Below are positions 1 through 52,545 of a stretch of 64,000 nt of DNA, piece by piece. The position numbers and the translations under genes were made by a program. The first letter of the stretch is position 1, and the number at the start of each line of letters is the position of its first letter. This DNA comes from Alkalibacillus filiformis (lineage in GTDB: Bacteria > Bacillota > Bacilli > Bacillales > Alkalibacillaceae): contig NZ_JAUSUP010000001.1 of NCBI RefSeq assembly GCF_030814115.1, positions 1-64,000 of the forward strand, written 5' to 3'. A model generated the notes under the pieces. The model saw only the letters and a list, made by a program, of their open reading frames with translations, was not told the DNA's origin and made no database searches.

Positions 1-10
1 ACATGAGGAT

Positions 11-40
11 TCCATATGAAAGCATCTTCTTTCATATGGA
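11..40. terminator. Perfect 12-bp hairpin, probable terminator of an upstream gene
   Basis: Positions 11-22 and 29-40 are perfect reverse complements around a 6-nt loop. The 3' side continues with TTAAAAG rather than a clean T-run, so the terminator call is tentative. The gene it would serve lies outside the window. Confidence 0.4.
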
Positions 41-80
41 TTAAAAGTTTGCCTTATGAGAGCAAAAACATGTCCAATAT

Positions 81-187
81 ATTGACAGAACGTCAATAAT
101 TGCCGGACGAAGTGGGGTTAATGTCGGACAAGGGGTCATAATTGCCGGACGGAACGGAATTAATGTCGGACACCCAACCCCATTTTA
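81..187. repeat. 21-nt phased repeat array, GYCGGAC core (array A1)
   Basis: Four CGGAC cores begin at 104, 125, 146 and 167, exactly 21 nt apart. The linkers alternate between TTAAT and ATAATT before the core. A small inverted repeat (ATTGAC and GTCAAT, 81-97) occupies the place of a preceding degenerate unit. The array lies just upstream of the pseudouridine synthase and shares its architecture with the arrays at 31745 and, in reverse orientation, 23708. Confidence 0.8.
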
Positions 188-19904: not shown

Positions 19905-19988
19905 CGCTTCAAAATTTGACGAGCATAATTTTCCACCGTTCTAATAAAGTGAATTGAGTGTATTTTATTGGAAATGTGGAGGGATTCA

Positions 19989-21530
19989 ATGGAGTTAGTA
20001 GGGTTTTTACTGTTTTTAATTCCGCTGTTAGTCATAGCAGCGATCGTCGGTTTGTTATGGTGGGTGTGGATGAAGCTTCGATACCGGACAGCAAAGTCAA
20101 ATGAAGCGCTTATTATTGCGGGTCCACGGCTTGGTAACCCGAGTAAAGAAACGAATATTTTCACCGATGAAGAAGGCCGTTCGATGAAGATTATTCGTGG
20201 TGGTGGGCATCTATTAAGAATGCACCAAACCGCGACACCGGTTGATTTAACAGCATTTCAGCTGAAAATTACTACACCTCGCGTATACACGAATGGTGGT
20301 GTGCCAATTATTGCCGATGCTGTCGCGATGGTGAAAGTTGCTGATACGTTACGTGGAATTGCAATTTACGCGGAGCAATTTTTAGGGAAAAAGCCGAAAG
20401 AGATCCAAGCTGAAATATCAGAAGTGTTGAATGCGAATTTGCGAGCTATTTTATCTAAAATGACAGTCGAAGGTATTAATGAAGATCGCGAGGAGTTTAA
20501 TAAACAAGTAACTAAAGTTGCTCAGCGTCAGCTAGATGAGATGGGTTTCAAGATTACGTCACTCGGTTTACAAGACTTGCGTGATGCTGACCCTGAAAAT
20601 GGTTACTTAGAGAACTTAGGTAAGCCTCGTATCGCACAAATTCGTAAAAAAGCTGAGTTGGCTGAGTCGGATGCTGATAAGGAAACGCGTATTCACCGTG
20701 CCAACAATGATCAAGAAGCAAAAGAGCAGGAGTTTGAACGTCAAATTGAAATTGCTGAATCCAAAAAGGAAAAAGACTTAAATGACGCATCAATTAAAAA
20801 AGAAACGGAACGAGCGCGTGCAAAGTCTGAGCAGTCGTACCAATTAGAAAAAGCACGACTTGATAAAGAAGTTCAAGAACAAGAATTGAAAGTCCATGCG
20901 CAAAAGAAAGAAGAACATTTGCGCTTGCAACATATGGAGCGCGAGCGTCTAGTGCAGTTGGAACATGAAGAAGCGAAAGTGCGTCAAGCGAAGGCCGATG
21001 CTGAATACTACGAAGTGACAAAACAAGCTGAAGCCGAAGCGAAGAAAGCACAAATCGATGGTGAAACCCGTGCGAAGATTAAACGTGAAGCTGGTTTGTC
21101 AGAAGCTGAAGTTATTCGGAAAAAAGGTGAAGCAGAGGCCGAGTCGAAGAGGTTGCTCGCTGAAGCGATCTCCAAGCACGGTGAGGTCGTCATCGTTGAA
21201 AAGTTAATCGAAATGCTTCCTGAATACGCAAAAGAAATCGCTAAGCCGTTATCCAATATTGAATCAGTTAAAGTCATTGACACTGGAGGCAGTGGCCAAG
21301 GTGGTATTTCAACTTATGGCCAGTCAATAACAAACACGATGACCCAAATCCAAGAGCCGTTAAAAGAGCTGACGGGATTAGATGTGAATCAACTTTTAAC
21401 GGATCTTGTGAATCGCGGCAATACGCACACAGTCGTGCGAGCGGAAGAGACGAAAGATGAGAAGGAAGAGCAACCTGAAATGACAGTCGAGGTTGAAGAA
21501 CAAGACGACAGGCCGGATGATAAGGGATAA
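19989..21530 (+). CDS. floT: Flotillin, FloT/YuaG type
   Basis: A 513-residue flotillin. One N-terminal membrane segment (about 4-28) is followed by a SPFH/band-7 domain (about 30-210, including the ALIIAGPRLG start and DPENGYLENLGKP end). A long Ala/Glu/Lys coiled coil (about 215-390) follows, with the EAEAE-type repeats of flotillins, then a C-terminal oligomerisation region. It scaffolds functional membrane microdomains. GGAGG sits six bases before ATG 19989, giving a start without the extra seven residues. In Bacillus subtilis floT is preceded by an NfeD-type gene; none is seen here. The stop codon is followed at once by repeat array B1. Confidence 0.93.
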   Translation: MELVGFLLFLIPLLVIAAIVGLLWWVWMKLRYRTAKSNEALIIAGPRLGNPSKETNIFTDEEGRSMKIIRGGGHLLRMHQTATPVDLTAFQLKITTPRVYTNGGVPIIADAVAMVKVADTLRGIAIYAEQFLGKKPKEIQAEISEVLNANLRAILSKMTVEGINEDREEFNKQVTKVAQRQLDEMGFKITSLGLQDLRDADPENGYLENLGKPRIAQIRKKAELAESDADKETRIHRANNDQEAKEQEFERQIEIAESKKEKDLNDASIKKETERARAKSEQSYQLEKARLDKEVQEQELKVHAQKKEEHLRLQHMERERLVQLEHEEAKVRQAKADAEYYEVTKQAEAEAKKAQIDGETRAKIKREAGLSEAEVIRKKGEAEAESKRLLAEAISKHGEVVIVEKLIEMLPEYAKEIAKPLSNIESVKVIDTGGSGQGGISTYGQSITNTMTQIQEPLKELTGLDVNQLLTDLVNRGNTHTVVRAEETKDEKEEQPEMTVEVEEQDDRPDDKG

Positions 21531-21720
21531 TTACCGAATAAGGTGAGGTTAATACCGAATAGGGTGGAGTTAATACCGAATGGAGCGGATAATTACCGAA
21601 TAGGGTGTGGTTAATACCGAATAGAGCGGATAGTTACCGAATAAGGAGCAGTTAATACCGAATAGACAGCAATAAGTACCGAACAAGGTGGGATAATTAC
21701 CGAATACAGACATGAACGGA
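21531..21720. repeat. 21-nt phased repeat array, ACCGAAT core (array B1)
   Basis: Nine TACCGAA cores begin at 21532, 21553, 21574, 21594, 21615, 21635, 21656, 21677 and 21698, so the spacing is 21 nt (20 in two steps). The linkers end alternately in GTTAA or GATAAT. The array fills the gap between the convergent flotillin and Nudix genes and starts at the flotillin stop codon. Read on the Nudix coding strand the core is ATTCGGTA, the same orientation as array B2 has to its Nudix gene. Confidence 0.88.
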
Positions 21721-21745: not shown

Positions 21746-22252
21746 TCACCGCTCATTTTTATCAATTTTCAAAGCTTCATCCATTACAGCCTGATACAAC
21801 TCATGCCATTTTGGATAATACTCAGGAACATCGTCGTGGTCAATAAATGTTCGTCTGCTAGCTTCATATCCTCCTACAAAAGGGTGAATCTTTTCAATAT
21901 CCATTCGGTAAAAGACTTGATAGCCAACGATTGGATATGGACCGTTTGGATCGAAGTTAGGGTTTTCGTGGTGGTCAACAGCAATGGCGCCAAGCAGCTG
22001 ACACTTTCCACTTACATAACCTTCTTCATAAGCTTCGCGTTTAAAACATTGTAAAGGCGTTTCGTCTTCTTCGGTGTGCCCTCCTGGAAAGTCCCAGCCG
22101 CGGTCGTTTAAATCGACCATCAGTAATTGTCCATGCTGATCAAAACAAAACCCGTGTACACTTGTGATTAAATGGCGATCTGGTAGTGCGTCTCCGGCTT
22201 GCCAACTTAATTTAACACGTGAATTCCCCCAATTAACATAAGTTGAAATCAT
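21746..22252 (-). CDS. Nudix hydrolase family protein
   Basis: A 168-residue Nudix-fold protein. The Nudix box runs from GGHTEEDETPLQCF to REAYEEGYV (about residues 57-80), with the expected Gly, Glu, Arg and Glu-Glu positions. These enzymes hydrolyse nucleoside diphosphates linked to another moiety; the substrate is not predictable. An N-terminal 25-residue strand region precedes the core. It is a stand-alone gene on the minus strand whose 3' end faces array B1; upstream lies a 370-nt gap. Confidence 0.82.
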   Translation of the reverse strand: MISTYVNWGNSRVKLSWQAGDALPDRHLITSVHGFCFDQHGQLLMVDLNDRGWDFPGGHTEEDETPLQCFKREAYEEGYVSGKCQLLGAIAVDHHENPNFDPNGPYPIVGYQVFYRMDIEKIHPFVGGYEASRRTFIDHDDVPEYYPKWHELYQAVMDEALKIDKNER

Positions 22253-23564: not shown

Positions 23565-23631
23565 TTTGGTGGTATGACTCTAGGCGGTAAGAGTCATATG
23601 GTGGTGCAAAAGCAATCTCCTATTCCAATGT

Positions 23632-23664
23632 AACCTCCTCACGAGCGGTAGTGAGGGGGTTTTT
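23632..23664 (+). terminator. Terminator downstream of the amidase gene
   Basis: AACCTCCTCAC pairs with GTGAGGGGGTT (with one bulge) around the loop GAGCGGTA and is followed by TTT. A second hairpin without a T-run (ATGACTCT/AGAGTCAT, 23573-23597) precedes it. Confidence 0.75.
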
Positions 23665-23707
23665 ATGTGTGTGCTGATTCATCCGACTCGCGTTATAATG
23701 AGCGTTT

Positions 23708-24043
23708 CGTCCGACACTAATACCTGTTCGTCCGACAATTATGGCCAGTTGTCCAACATTAATGCCCACTCGTCCGACAATTATGGAGGTGTGTCCGACA
23801 TTAATGCCCGCTCGTCCGACAATTATGGCCAGTTGTCCGACATTAATGCCCACTCGTCCGACAATTATGGCCGGTTGTCCAACATTAATGCCCACTCGTC
23901 CGACAATTATGGCCGTTCGTCCGACATTAATGCCCGCTTGTCCAACAATTATGGAGGTTTGTCCGGCACTAATGCCTGCTCATCTGACAATTACGCCCGC
24001 TTGTCCGACACTACCACCCCATCGTCCGACAACAAACCGCCCC
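23708..24043. repeat. Long 21-nt phased repeat array, GTCCGAC core (array A2)
   Basis: Sixteen consecutive units, each exactly 21 nt, run from 23708 to 24043. Units alternate between the forms CGTCCGACAATTATGG and TGTCCGACATTAATGCCC. The core varies little (TCCAAC in three units, TCCGGC and TCTGAC once each). The alternating linker and period match array B1 and B2, whose core differs. It fills the space between convergent cell-wall hydrolase genes. Because 21 is a multiple of three, long repetitive ORFs arise on both strands; none has a credible binding site. Confidence 0.92.
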
Positions 24044-24047
24044 CATC

Positions 24048-24080
24048 AAAAAAGACGAACGCCAAATCCTGCGTTCGCCA
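24048..24080 (-). terminator. Terminator of the LysM-NlpC/P60 gene
   Basis: On the minus strand a 7-bp stem (CGAACGC/GCGTTCG, 24056-24062 with 24071-24077) is followed by six T. It lies directly at the edge of array A2. Confidence 0.85.
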
Positions 24081-24084
24081 AAAA

Positions 24085-25395
24085 TCAATAAATCCGATTT
24101 GCCCCAACGTAATACTGAGACCAATAACTATTGTCCATTGAGTATTCCCAAATACCTCTTGATGATGTTGCTGAAATAAAGCTGTTATTACCAGTATAAA
24201 AGCCAACATGAGAAATGCTATTCGGATCGTTAACAGCAAAGTAAACTAAATCTCCTGGCTGTAAATCACTTCGACTAATGGGTTCGCCTTGATTAAATAA
24301 TTTAGCCGATGTCGTACGTGTCGTGTCTACACCATGCTTTTTAAACATATAGTACACGAAACCTGAACAGTCAAAACCAACTTCCGGCGAATCGCCACCC
24401 CATACGTAAGGCACACCAGTGTATGTGTCTAAGTCATTTACTAGCTCTTGTTTCGTCAAAGCGCGGTCGACTTCGTGGAGTGTTGTTTGGTCGGCTGTAC
24501 CTGATACGTTCAGGCTGTAATCCCGCTGGAAATCTCGTACTGATTGAGATGTGATTGAGCCATAATAAGCTGTTGGATCTTGGTTAAAATACCCTAATGA
24601 AATTAAGTTTTGTTGTAAATTTTCAACGGCTGAATTTTCATCGCCAACGGAAAGAGGACCTTCCGCAGGAGTACTGTCTGGAATCGTTAATGTCTGTCCA
24701 GAATAAATGACATCGCTTTTTAAATGGTTAGCGCTTCTTAACGCATCAACTGATACACCATGTTTTAATGCAATGGTGTATAACGAATCACCACTTTGAA
24801 CGGTATAGGTTCCTGACGCACTCGTTCCAGTTGGAATCGTCAACATTTGCCCAGCATATATAATATCAGTCGTTAAGCCATTTGCTTGTTTAATCGAATC
24901 AACTGTCGTATCAAACTGACTAGCGATTAAATAAAGCGAATCGCCTGATTTAACTTTGTAATCATTTGATTGATGTGGAACCTCTAAACGTTGTCCGATC
25001 CAAATGGTATTTCCACTTAAGCCGTTTAATTGCTTAATGGCCTCAACTGTCGTGCCATATTGTTGCGCAATCAAATATAGTGAATCGCCACTTTCGACTT
25101 CATGAAAATGACTGTGAGCAGCTTGTTGTTGAGAGGTAGCTTCTGCTGAGCCGTAATCAGCTCCTAATGCAAAGGACATGACCAGAGCAGGCCCAAGCAT
25201 CACTTTTACTTTCGTTACATTTAAATGTGAAAAGTTCTTGATGACATATTGTTTAAAGTTTTTATACTTTCTCTTTGATGGGAGTCTAATCGCATCAAGT
25301 TCATCAGAAAATTCACTGTAATGCTCATCCAGATAAAAAATAATCGTAAAGCCAGTTTCATTCGGCTCAAGGCGATAGCCTTTCATGTAATCCAT
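24085..25395 (-). CDS. NlpC/P60 endopeptidase with three LysM domains
   Basis: A 436-residue cell-wall hydrolase. An N-terminal cytoplasmic-like domain (about 1-60) precedes a membrane or signal segment (about 62-80). Three LysM repeats follow (about 97-141, 147-190, 196-239; each begins YxVxSGDSLYxIA-like), then a peptidoglycan_binding_1 domain (about 247-305) and NlpC/P60 (about 318-436). The catalytic Cys is in GFDCSGFVYY and the His in ISHVGFYTG. It would cut D-Glu-diaminopimelate links in stem peptides. GAGGAGG precedes ATG 25395, but that site is locked in an 11-bp hairpin with the leader, described separately. Confidence 0.9.
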   Translation of the reverse strand: MDYMKGYRLEPNETGFTIIFYLDEHYSEFSDELDAIRLPSKRKYKNFKQYVIKNFSHLNVTKVKVMLGPALVMSFALGADYGSAEATSQQQAAHSHFHEVESGDSLYLIAQQYGTTVEAIKQLNGLSGNTIWIGQRLEVPHQSNDYKVKSGDSLYLIASQFDTTVDSIKQANGLTTDIIYAGQMLTIPTGTSASGTYTVQSGDSLYTIALKHGVSVDALRSANHLKSDVIYSGQTLTIPDSTPAEGPLSVGDENSAVENLQQNLISLGYFNQDPTAYYGSITSQSVRDFQRDYSLNVSGTADQTTLHEVDRALTKQELVNDLDTYTGVPYVWGGDSPEVGFDCSGFVYYMFKKHGVDTTRTTSAKLFNQGEPISRSDLQPGDLVYFAVNDPNSISHVGFYTGNNSFISATSSRGIWEYSMDNSYWSQYYVGANRIY

Positions 25396-31744: not shown

Positions 31745-31830
31745 GTTAATGTCGGACACGGAGGCATAATTGTCGGACGGAGCGTGCTTAATGTCGGACG
31801 CGCACCTATAACTGCCGAACAAAACGACTT
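31745..31830. repeat. 21-nt phased repeat array, GTCGGAC core (array A3)
   Basis: Cores begin at 31753, 31774, 31795 and (as CCGAAC) 31816, exactly 21 nt apart, with the alternating TTAAT and ATAATT linkers of array A1. The array lies between the metal-transporter terminator and the first surface-glycan gene. The last unit has an ACCGAAC-like core intermediate between types A and B. Confidence 0.82.
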
Positions 31831-50729: not shown

Positions 50730-50819
50730 TCTGTTTTAGATTCCTCACAATTGCTTAGCTTTTTTGAATCCTCCTTATGATAATATGAATATAATAAGCA
50801 TCCATAGGGGGTGGTCGTT

Positions 50820-51905
50820 ATGGAACAAATACGTCAAGAAGCGCGCGAGTTTATGATCAATACTTATTACGAGCTTGGAAAAACTGAAGAAGAAGCGTTA
50901 CATCGGATCGAAGAAGTTGATCAAGAAATTGTTGACAAAGGTTTTTATGAACAGACATTTGAAGAACTGGAATACGGAGCTAAAGTTGCATGGCGAAACA
51001 GCAACCGTTGTATTGGCAGACTGTTTTGGGACCAGCTTCACGTGATCGACAAAAGGCATTTAAAGACAGAAGAAGCCATTTTTCAAGCCTTAGTTGAACA
51101 TATAGATTTTGCGACAAATGGTGGTCGTATTCGTTCGACGATCTCTGTCTTCCCACAATTGAAACAAGGTGAAAAGGTTCGGGTGTGGAATCACCAACTC
51201 ATTCGCTACGCTGGTTATGTAACAGAGCAAGGTGTTATTGGTGATTCTGACTCAATCGAGTTTACGAATAAGTGTATTGAACTTGGTTGGGAGCCGAAGT
51301 ATGGCCATTTTGATATTTTACCACTCGTCATTCAAATTAACGACAACGAACCAAGATGGTTTGAAATTCCTGAAGATGTTTTAATAGAAGTGCCGATTCA
51401 TCACCCTGAATATGACTGGTTTTCTGACCTTAATCTACAATGGTATGCTGTTCCAATCATTTCAGACATGTCATTAGATGTTGGTGGGATCACTTATCCA
51501 GCTGCCCCGTTTAATGGTTGGTATATGGGAACTGAGATTGGCGCACGCAACTTCGCTGATGAATATCGTTACAATATGTTACCGATGATTGCTGAATATA
51601 TGGGGTTAAATGTTAAACGGCAATCGACACTTTGGAAAGATCGTGCGTTACTCGAATTAAATACAGCAGTTTTGCACTCTTTTAAAGAAGCTGGTGTCAG
51701 CATAGTGGATCACCATACAGCTGCTCAACAGTTTAAAAAGTTTGAAGAAAAAGAAGCGACCGAAAACCGTGATGTAACTGGTAAATGGACGTGGCTTATC
51801 CCCCCAGTCTCACCTGCGACAACACATATTTTTCATAAGCCTTATAGTAATGAGATTGTTAAGCCGAATTACTTTTACCAAGGCAAGCCGTTTAAAGAAG
51901 GATGA
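50820..51905 (+). CDS. nos: Bacterial nitric oxide synthase (oxygenase domain)
   Basis: A 361-residue heme enzyme that makes NO and citrulline from arginine. The proximal heme Cys is residue 64 in AWRNSNRCIGR. The substrate Glu is in NGWYMGTEIGARN (about 240-252), and DHHTAAQQF (about 295) contributes to the pterin region. There is no reductase domain, as usual for Bacillus enzymes, which borrow electrons from other flavoproteins. NO protects against oxidative stress and some antibiotics in Bacillus. AGGGGGTGG favours ATG 50820 over GTG 50811. The stop overlaps the start of a Nudix gene. Confidence 0.95.
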   Translation: MEQIRQEAREFMINTYYELGKTEEEALHRIEEVDQEIVDKGFYEQTFEELEYGAKVAWRNSNRCIGRLFWDQLHVIDKRHLKTEEAIFQALVEHIDFATNGGRIRSTISVFPQLKQGEKVRVWNHQLIRYAGYVTEQGVIGDSDSIEFTNKCIELGWEPKYGHFDILPLVIQINDNEPRWFEIPEDVLIEVPIHHPEYDWFSDLNLQWYAVPIISDMSLDVGGITYPAAPFNGWYMGTEIGARNFADEYRYNMLPMIAEYMGLNVKRQSTLWKDRALLELNTAVLHSFKEAGVSIVDHHTAAQQFKKFEEKEATENRDVTGKWTWLIPPVSPATTHIFHKPYSNEIVKPNYFYQGKPFKEG

Positions 51906-52435: not shown

Positions 52436-52545
52436 GCTTTCTATTCGGTAATTAACTGCTGTTATTCGGTATTAACTCCGTGCTATTCGGTAATAATCGT
52501 CTCTATTCGGTAATAACTCCATCTTATTCGGTAATAATCAGACTA
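52436..52545. repeat. 21-nt phased repeat array, ATTCGGTA core (array B2)
   Basis: Five TCGGTA cores begin at 52445, 52466, 52487, 52507 and 52528 (21, 21, 20, 21 nt apart), with linkers AATTAACT and AATAAT alternating. It is the reverse complement form of array B1. It lies directly behind the Nudix gene and ahead of a lipoprotein gene; no hairpin terminator is visible between them. Confidence 0.85.

Follow-up and report, generated by a model that had tools for sequence, protein, structure and literature searches.

Repeat Arrays in the Window

The window analysed here, i.e., the first 64,000 nucleotides of contig NZ_JAUSUP010000001.1 of Alkalibacillus filiformis, carries a tandem repeat array between the genes for a flotillin and a convergently oriented NUDIX protein, both identified by Pfam. 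The original prediction had described nine units with an ACCGAAT-type core and a period of 20–21 nt at this site, and we confirmed the array (cores at 21533–21705) as well as its position between the two genes. The features of the window needed in the following are:

1..95, no strand assigned: contig start, formed by end E1 of IS-like element A; an identical end is present at 9 contig ends
96..171, plus strand: GYCGGAC array with four cores (102, 123, 144, 165), flanked by the IS-like element end and a pseudouridine-synthase-like gene
19968..21530, plus strand: flotillin gene (Pfam Band_7 and Flot), upstream neighbour of the nine-unit array
21527..21705, plus strand: array of nine ACCGAA(T/C) units with a period of 20–21 nt, 3′ of the flotillin gene
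21746..22252, minus strand: NUDIX gene (Pfam NUDIX), convergent and downstream of the array
23706..24032, minus strand: GYCGGAC array with a period of 21/42 nt, 3′ of a LysM/NlpC-P60 gene on the same strand
31746..31820, plus strand: GTCGGAC array of three units, the last of which is the intermediate GCCGAAC (31814–31820)
52441..52539, minus strand: second ACCGAAT array with five cores, flanked by NUDIX-like and lipoprotein-like genes (names from sequence)

The nine cores behind the flotillin gene start at positions 21533, 21554, 21575, 21595, 21616, 21636, 21657, 21678, and 21699, at spacings of 20 or 21 nt, and the core at 21678 reads ACCGAAC. They are preceded, in this order, by the linkers ATAATT, GTTAAT, GTTAAT, ATAATT, GTTAAT, ATAGTT, GTTAAT, ATAAGT, and ATAATT, the first of which shares bases with the flotillin stop codon. 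The alternation of linkers proposed earlier is thus real but imperfect. The intermediate GCCGAAC unit was indeed recovered as the closing unit of a GTCGGAC array, and the second ACCGAAT array had been overlooked.

The ACCGAAT paired pattern matched 44 times in the own genome (G000; 2.72 Mb in 30 contigs) and the TCGGAC paired pattern 28 times, versus no match of either reversed-pattern control. Exact pairs 20–21 nt apart were found six and four times on the two strands of the window and never in 200 mononucleotide shuffles; a looser window test with a fixed spacing of 20 nt and up to three mismatches gave no discrimination (3 found vs. 1.92 expected). The nine-unit array, which was the one array folded, showed no folding beyond that of shuffled sequences, either as RNA (z = −0.77) or as DNA of the other strand (z = +1.75), and a function as RNA or hairpin was rejected because it folds no better than the shuffles.

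Two further observations concern open reading frames of the window. At 23620–24141, the period-21 GYCGGAC array leaves frames of 91 and 158 amino acids open on both strands, so gene calling can be misled by such an array. An ORF at 50811–51905 presumably resembles a bacterial nitric-oxide synthase oxygenase.

Relationship of the Two Cores and Insertions into Arrays

We parsed 35 arrays in sampled stretches of G000 and of G003, one of two genomes of Alkalibacillus haloalkaliphilus used here (G003, strain NBRC 103110; G004, strain C5). The units are spaced by 21 nt (164 cases) or 20 nt (56), with a few at 22 or 41–42 nt. Between neighbouring units, 127 transitions stayed within ACCGAAT-like and 88 within GTCGGAC-like cores, five led from ACCGAAT-like to GTCGGAC-like cores in 5′ to 3′ direction, two ran in the opposite direction at the last units of the arrays, and ten passed via units equidistant from both cores. 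A check on core mixing within arrays had been suggested together with the original prediction, and both types indeed occur in seven of the 35 arrays. L211 and L216 of G003, where an ACCGAAT block is followed by a GTCGGAC block, were split by the parsing script and come in addition to these seven. Intermediate cores in the same set are GCCGAAT (6), GTCGAAC (6), ACCGAAC (5), GCCGAAC (4), ATCGAAT, ATCGAAC, and ACCGGAT (1 each). One orthologous site consists of a gene for a NERD protein (see below), an array, and a pseudouridine-synthase-like gene; here, G000 and G001 have the GYCGGAC core and G004 has ACCGAAT; ACCGAAT is also found beside the NERD gene in G003, where the contig ends inside the array.

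The contig ends of G000 bear on the same relationship. Thirty of the 52 ends of contigs C1–C26 consist of one of four sequences (9, 8, 7, and 6 copies), which we read as both ends of two IS-like elements, A and B. A script found at least two repeat units behind the element at 23 of these 30 junctions; by eye, C6.s, C9.s, and C12.e add three more, C5.s and C14.s have one unit each, and C8.e and C20.e, apparently the two sides of one insertion, have none. Arrays make up 0.61% (2824 bases) of a 464-kb sample of G000. Inspection by eye places the insertion of element A in the linker, two bases ahead of the core, and that of element B at the core's end; both show what looks like a 4-bp duplication and have an identical offset in both core types. 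The elements also enter the repeat GAGCGCYGATAAA (family III) and a TGAGC family (IV). The four bases after E1 in the window (ATAA) are compatible with a 4-bp duplication. Two IS-like elements use arrays of several families as landing sites, despite the small share of arrays in the sample. Among the small contigs of G000, C24 (L154; 3.7 kb) has ends sharing sequence and a replication-initiator-like ORF and is perhaps a small plasmid, and C27–C30 (L156–L159; 1.2–1.6 kb) consist entirely of N.

Mixed arrays, intermediate units, shared insertion offsets, and the core switch at an orthologous site support the earlier proposal that ACCGAAT and GYCGGAC are variants of one superfamily.

NERD-ZnR Genes Adjoin the Arrays

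A gene for a protein with a NERD (nuclease-related) domain was first noticed adjoining arrays in G003 and G001. The six Alkalibacillus genomes contain 29 matches to the NERD family PF08378 (G000, 4; G001, 8; G002, 4; G003, 5; G004, 5; G005, 3), all above the cut-off. We aligned the 22 proteins of this set which bear a C-terminal zinc ribbon and are called NERD-ZnR in the following; PF08378 is matched by all of them, with 63.6 bits vs. a cut-off of 22.1 for member 1. Their NERD domain, in which E, D, and E-x-K residues are invariant, is N-terminal and precedes the zinc ribbon and a helix-turn-helix-like tail. Residues G45, G48, E49, Q79, D81, E94, K96, and four cysteines are among those invariant in all 22 members, and nuclease activity is predicted from the nuclease-like residues E49, D81, E94, and K96. 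Comparison with solved structures yielded zinc-ribbon-type matches only (best E value 0.0052).

Using TRF with a score of at least 40 and about 1.5 kb on each side where the contig allowed it, we detected a tandem array at 20 of the 22 NERD-ZnR loci. The two negative loci are L236 and L244, the latter of which has three ACCGAAT units by eye; at L225, the TRF array lies more than 1 kb from the gene, and nearer repeats are visible by eye. Of the seven remaining NERD genes, L220 and L221, in neither of which a ribbon was seen (L221 is truncated by a contig end), are located close to arrays resembling family V. No array accompanies L222 and L242, both of which lack the ribbon, or L237, and arrays are present at the broken copies L223 and L246. 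In the own genome, the NERD gene of family IV (L223; G000:C22) is apparently broken near the zinc ribbon, and its arrays persist. The NERD genes and the repeats adjoining them are:

G000:C25 and G001:C6: GYCGGAC-type repeat
G003:C6 and G004:C104: ACCGAAT repeat
G000:C16, G004:C2, and G003:C26: GAGCGCYGATAAA or a variant of it
G003:C16 and G004:C98: two different TGAGC repeats
G000:C7, G003:C17, and G004:C145: CGCCGGA(A/T)TAT repeat
G002:C9 and G005:C5: TTGTTWAACAAT
three G001 genes forming a clade of their own: units of 52–53 nt

The last three genes (L234, L238, L247) form a separate NERD-ZnR clade whose units correspond to about five helical turns, in a tree for which the program warned of long branches; arrays of 51–53 nt were also seen in G256 and G156.

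At the locus of the two cores treated above (families I and II), the NERD gene in G001 and G004 is followed by the array and then by a gene which is presumably pseudouridine-synthase-like. The NERD contig C25 of G000 ends in an array and an element end (E2), and the window starts with E1, an array, and the pseudouridine-synthase-like gene; from this we infer that a single insertion separates the window from the reader gene immediately to its left, and the array at 96..171 is probably the right part of the array adjoining it. The NERD proteins encoded beside GYCGGAC and those encoded beside ACCGAAT group in a single clade, to which each of these genomes contributes one gene, so the paralogous proteins suggested to read these two cores are to be replaced by one orthologous reader. 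True paralogs of this gene adjoin other repeat families.

Distribution of NERD-ZnR and Comparison with Control Genes

A profile of the 22 NERD-ZnR proteins matched 197 of 249 genomes and 81 of 105 genera of the order at a threshold of 1e-20, with up to ten matches per genome, although these copy numbers may be lower bounds (some candidates were scored per genome). In a sample of the phylum, 15 of 398 genomes matched the profile; six of these matches span nearly the whole model, five of them from the order (the own genome included) and one from the class, and nine reach only model position 246 or less.

We compared 30 NERD-ZnR loci, a non-random set of best scorers, with one NUDIX gene from each of the same 30 genomes. 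An array with a period of 17–24 or at least 34 nt was present within 500 nt of 25 of the 30 NERD-ZnR genes and of none of the 30 NUDIX genes (Fisher test, 5e-12). The arrays of these 25 loci lie on the 5′ side in 16 cases, on the 3′ side in 17, and on both sides in eight; L316, L319, L322, L328, and L333 have no array within 500 nt. Because three of the 30 genomes are Alkalibacillus, 22 of 27 genes are array-flanked outside the genus. If the arrays were slippage minisatellites and the NERD genes had come to lie by chance in repeat-tolerant places, their local homogeneity would be expected, but neither the difference from the NUDIX genes of the same genomes nor the matching of families to genes and the C-terminal co-variation with the repeat (both below) would follow. 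This passive explanation is strongly disfavoured, and we give it hardly any credence.

Abundance and Placement of Repeats

Pairs of ACCGAAT units occur in three of the 22 genomes of the family (G000, 44; G003, 76; G004, 43), and GTCGGAC (family I) pairs occur in G000 (28), G003 (32), G004 (12), and G001 (45), i.e., in all four Alkalibacillus genomes with a gene of the I/II clade; both are absent from G002 and G005. The GTCGGAC arrays of G001 use other linkers (e.g., GACA, GACG, CACA) instead of TTAAT and ATAATT. Among the family's other genera (16 genomes), neither core was found save for one isolated GTCGGAC pair in G006, and the reversed-pattern controls gave no match in array-bearing genomes and 1–2 matches in three others without arrays (G016, G005, G011). 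With regard to species distribution, which had been proposed as a check, the ranges of the two cores overlap but are not identical. Family III pairs number 67, 39, and 36 in G000, G003, and G004, the three genomes with a family III gene, vs. 0, 3, and 1 in G001, G002, and G005 and none in the 16 genomes of other genera. GGCCCAA, the repeat adjoining a NERD gene of G012, gave 209 pair matches in G012 and one in the 29 other genomes. A wider contig pattern scan returned at least 115 stretches; among the 16 richest, only L119 from A. haloalkaliphilus has the core-linker architecture by eye, the 21-nt period of L047 looks like a coding repeat, and the others were dismissed by eye as 6-nt repeats or chance.

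To relate scattered arrays to NERD genes, we ran TRF over parts of G000 (464 kb), G001 (400 kb), and G005 (400 kb), which gave 16, 34, and 19 arrays, respectively. After excluding one array beside a NERD gene, the flank matching the remaining 68 best belonged to a NERD gene of the same genome in 29 cases and of a sister genome in 19 (48 of 68 in total), with G000-G003-G004 and G002-G005 as sister sets of our own choosing, and in no case to a gene of a non-sister genome. The other 20 arrays have no NERD flank above the matching rule; several of these are apparently coding repeats, and unassigned 52-nt families of G001 are among them. As a counterexample, 9 of the 19 G005 arrays match the flank of L231, a G002 gene to which none of the NERD genes found in G005 corresponds. 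It also counts against the pairing that ACCGAAT pairs outnumber GTCGGAC pairs in G000, although the reader gene there adjoins GYCGGAC. In a comparison resting on four genomes and 200 kb of each, neither of the two genomes lacking a NERD-ZnR match has an array whose period is 20–21 nt or a multiple of it, with two arrays of longer period in one of them, and two genomes with nine matches each have six and two arrays of 20–21-nt period plus a few of other periods.

According to a crude ORF census, 21 of 44 arrays lie in convergent gaps vs. 90 of 621 background gaps (p = 6e-7), and 4 of 44 lie in divergent gaps vs. 129 of 621 (p = 0.08). The census does not include one array at a contig end or 24 arrays that overlap an open frame, in some cases a true coding repeat and in others a frame that stays open across the repeat. 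The scattered arrays of the intergenic sample mostly occupy convergent or co-directional gaps. The flotillin site of A. haloalkaliphilus G003 also has an array of the same core, which is separated from the NUDIX gene by an extra gene. Both the excess in convergent gaps and the retention of the flotillin site between species would be expected if the arrays had a host function, with NERD-ZnR using them as binding platforms (in nucleoid organisation, insulation, or 3′-end processing) and selection, not nuclease-driven spread, both keeping and renewing them. We consider this main rival explanation unlikely, because G001 has no comparable array 3′ of its flotillin gene, entire repeat populations differ between species, and the nuclease-like residues are invariant, which pure binding would not require.

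Divergence of the C-Terminal Part with the Repeat

In the tree, the NERD genes with family III repeats group as sisters of those with TTGTTWAACAAT, and both occupy one chromosomal slot, flanked by a DegV gene and a helicase gene (both assigned by Pfam for L228). The 5′ neighbour (DegV) shows 77–79% identity between L224/L225 and L228/L232, and the 3′ neighbour (helicase domains), presumably ComFA-like, shows 65–67% identity between L224/L225 and L228/L232/L233.

For pairs of NERD-ZnR proteins, we determined the identity (%) of the N-terminal and middle part and, separately, that of the zinc ribbon and C-terminus. Both values are similar in pairs with the same repeat, with 92/93 (L228-L232), 94/94 (L224-L225), and 100/98 (L239-L240), and also where the repeat is the same with differing linkers (57/57, L235-L248). 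Slightly altered repeats go along with values of 81/78 and 82/78 (family V) or 90/76 and 89/76 (variant of family III), and altered repeats with 93/64 and 92/70 (family I vs. II) and, in the extreme pair, 95/46 (family IV, G003 vs. G004). The pair L230-L236 gave 71/44, with an ambiguous repeat on the L236 side. L244-L245 speaks against co-variation with 96/81 at the same repeat, the last residues of L244 differing as in a shifted frame, and distant pairs show little or no excess divergence of the C-terminal part (33–36/38–44 for III vs. TTGTTWAACAAT; 57–58/50–52 for II vs. G001). The detached 3′ piece of L223, the broken gene of G000, is closer to G004 (71% identity) than to G003 (54%). By these alignments, the C-terminal domain is shown to be the most diverged part among close orthologs with differing repeats.

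Comparison with Known Systems

Published work on the REP/RAYT system describes flanking REPs, gene-repeat co-evolution, and correlated abundance (PMC2817692), as well as single gene copies with genome-wide REPs and a spreading mechanism still to be elucidated (PMC8266576). NERD-ZnR resembles these REPtrons in that a fixed, probably chromosomal gene for a presumed DNA-processing protein is flanked by its own repeat, on at least one side in 25 of 30 cases and on both in eight, with many further extragenic copies, in that repeat abundance follows the gene (families I and III in Alkalibacillus and GGCCCAA in G012, with G005 as an exception), and in that gene and repeat evolve together. It differs in the protein, which is a NERD (PD-(D/E)xK-like) protein with a zinc ribbon instead of an HUH transposase (no HUH-type tyrosine transposase is among the ten Pfam families listed for the 22 members), in the repeats, which are direct tandem units of 20–21 or 52–53 nt instead of palindromes and, in the array folded, form no hairpins beyond shuffles, and in its occurrence, found here in an order of Bacilli.

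Two other known kinds of repeats invite comparison. Like the iteron arrays of replication origins, the arrays described here are composed of direct repeats that span about two helical turns and have a presumed reader protein whose gene is close by; they differ in being scattered over the chromosome and in that their neighbour protein is nuclease-like, not an initiator. CRISPR arrays consist of regularly spaced repeats beside a nuclease-like gene, in contrast to the many dispersed loci with short, semi-conserved spacers and no visible Cas partner found here; the PADLOC matches of the 22 NERD-ZnR proteins include no Cas family.

Because NERD domains occur in defence proteins, NERD-ZnR might also be an anti-phage or anti-plasmid nuclease with the arrays as decoys or self-marks. 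Matches at E values up to 0.01 would fit such a role (PADLOC: PglW for 18 and MkoA for 9 of the 22 members; NCBIfam: MADS6 for 20 and BREX_PglW for 10), but the MADS6 score of the member shown is 20.4 bits vs. a cut-off of 460, so these matches presumably reflect the shared NERD domain only, and the neighbours at one locus are the DegV and helicase genes. A defensive role therefore appears very improbable. Carriage by phages or plasmids found no support either: one viral-contig scan revealed no relative, and one tblastn query with one protein against 72,556 plasmid records at 1e-10 gave no match, both searches being weak at distant identity.

PMC9040797 (2022) describes bacterial NERD function as unstudied prior to that work. 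Within PF08378, NERD-ZnR represents a subgroup with a C-terminal zinc ribbon and tail which is tied to cognate repeats, and among the open-licence papers listed we found no description of NERD proteins paired with repeats. We regard the system as categorically new because the enzyme, the repeat, and the host group are all different from those of the known analogue; if every pair of a gene and a dispersed repeat were counted as one kind, NERD-ZnR would become a variant of REP/RAYT.

Proposed Mechanism and Significance

Comparing sequences across genomes, we could show that NERD-ZnR genes and arrays are paired, that the pairing is specific between genomes, and that the C-terminal part co-varies with the repeat. 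We are fairly confident that, in a REP/RAYT-like manner, the arrays serve as dispersed partners of a nuclease-like gene with a fixed place on the chromosome, and we propose the following steps. Each NERD-ZnR gene would adjoin, or sit between, arrays of one repeat, with more copies dispersed in the genome. The C-terminal domain may contact the repeats in their double-stranded form, from one side of the helix, which is favoured by periods of 20–21 and 52–53 nt, i.e., about two and five turns of B-DNA, and by the lack of single-strand structure beyond shuffles in the one array folded. The NERD domain would then cut at or near the repeats, and repair of the cuts may expand, homogenise, and spread the arrays. 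We regard such nuclease-driven expansion and spread as the likeliest cause of the species-specific repeat populations. ACCGAAT and GYCGGAC would represent two target states of a single orthologous protein, the recognition domain of which would have drifted from one species to another.

More tentatively, and with distinctly less confidence, NERD-ZnR may be a domesticated, re-targetable nuclease which both copies helically phased tandem repeats actively and maintains their populations in genomes of the order, as a counterpart of REP/RAYT that evolved independently, and in which a change of the C-terminal domain starts the replacement of a repeat population. Replacement following a change of the recognition domain is suggested by the occurrence of GAGCGCYGATAAA vs. 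TTGTTWAACAAT next to sister NERD genes in one slot and by the ACCGAAT/GYCGGAC switch.

NERD, a domain family of unclear function in bacteria, thereby gains a testable partner sequence, and the natural protein pairs with 95% identical N-terminal parts and different repeats are ready-made specificity tests. NERD-ZnR also allows an independent comparison with REP/RAYT. Since the gene is present, often in several copies, in most of the genomes surveyed in the order, many unexplained intergenic repeats of these bacteria may share one cause.
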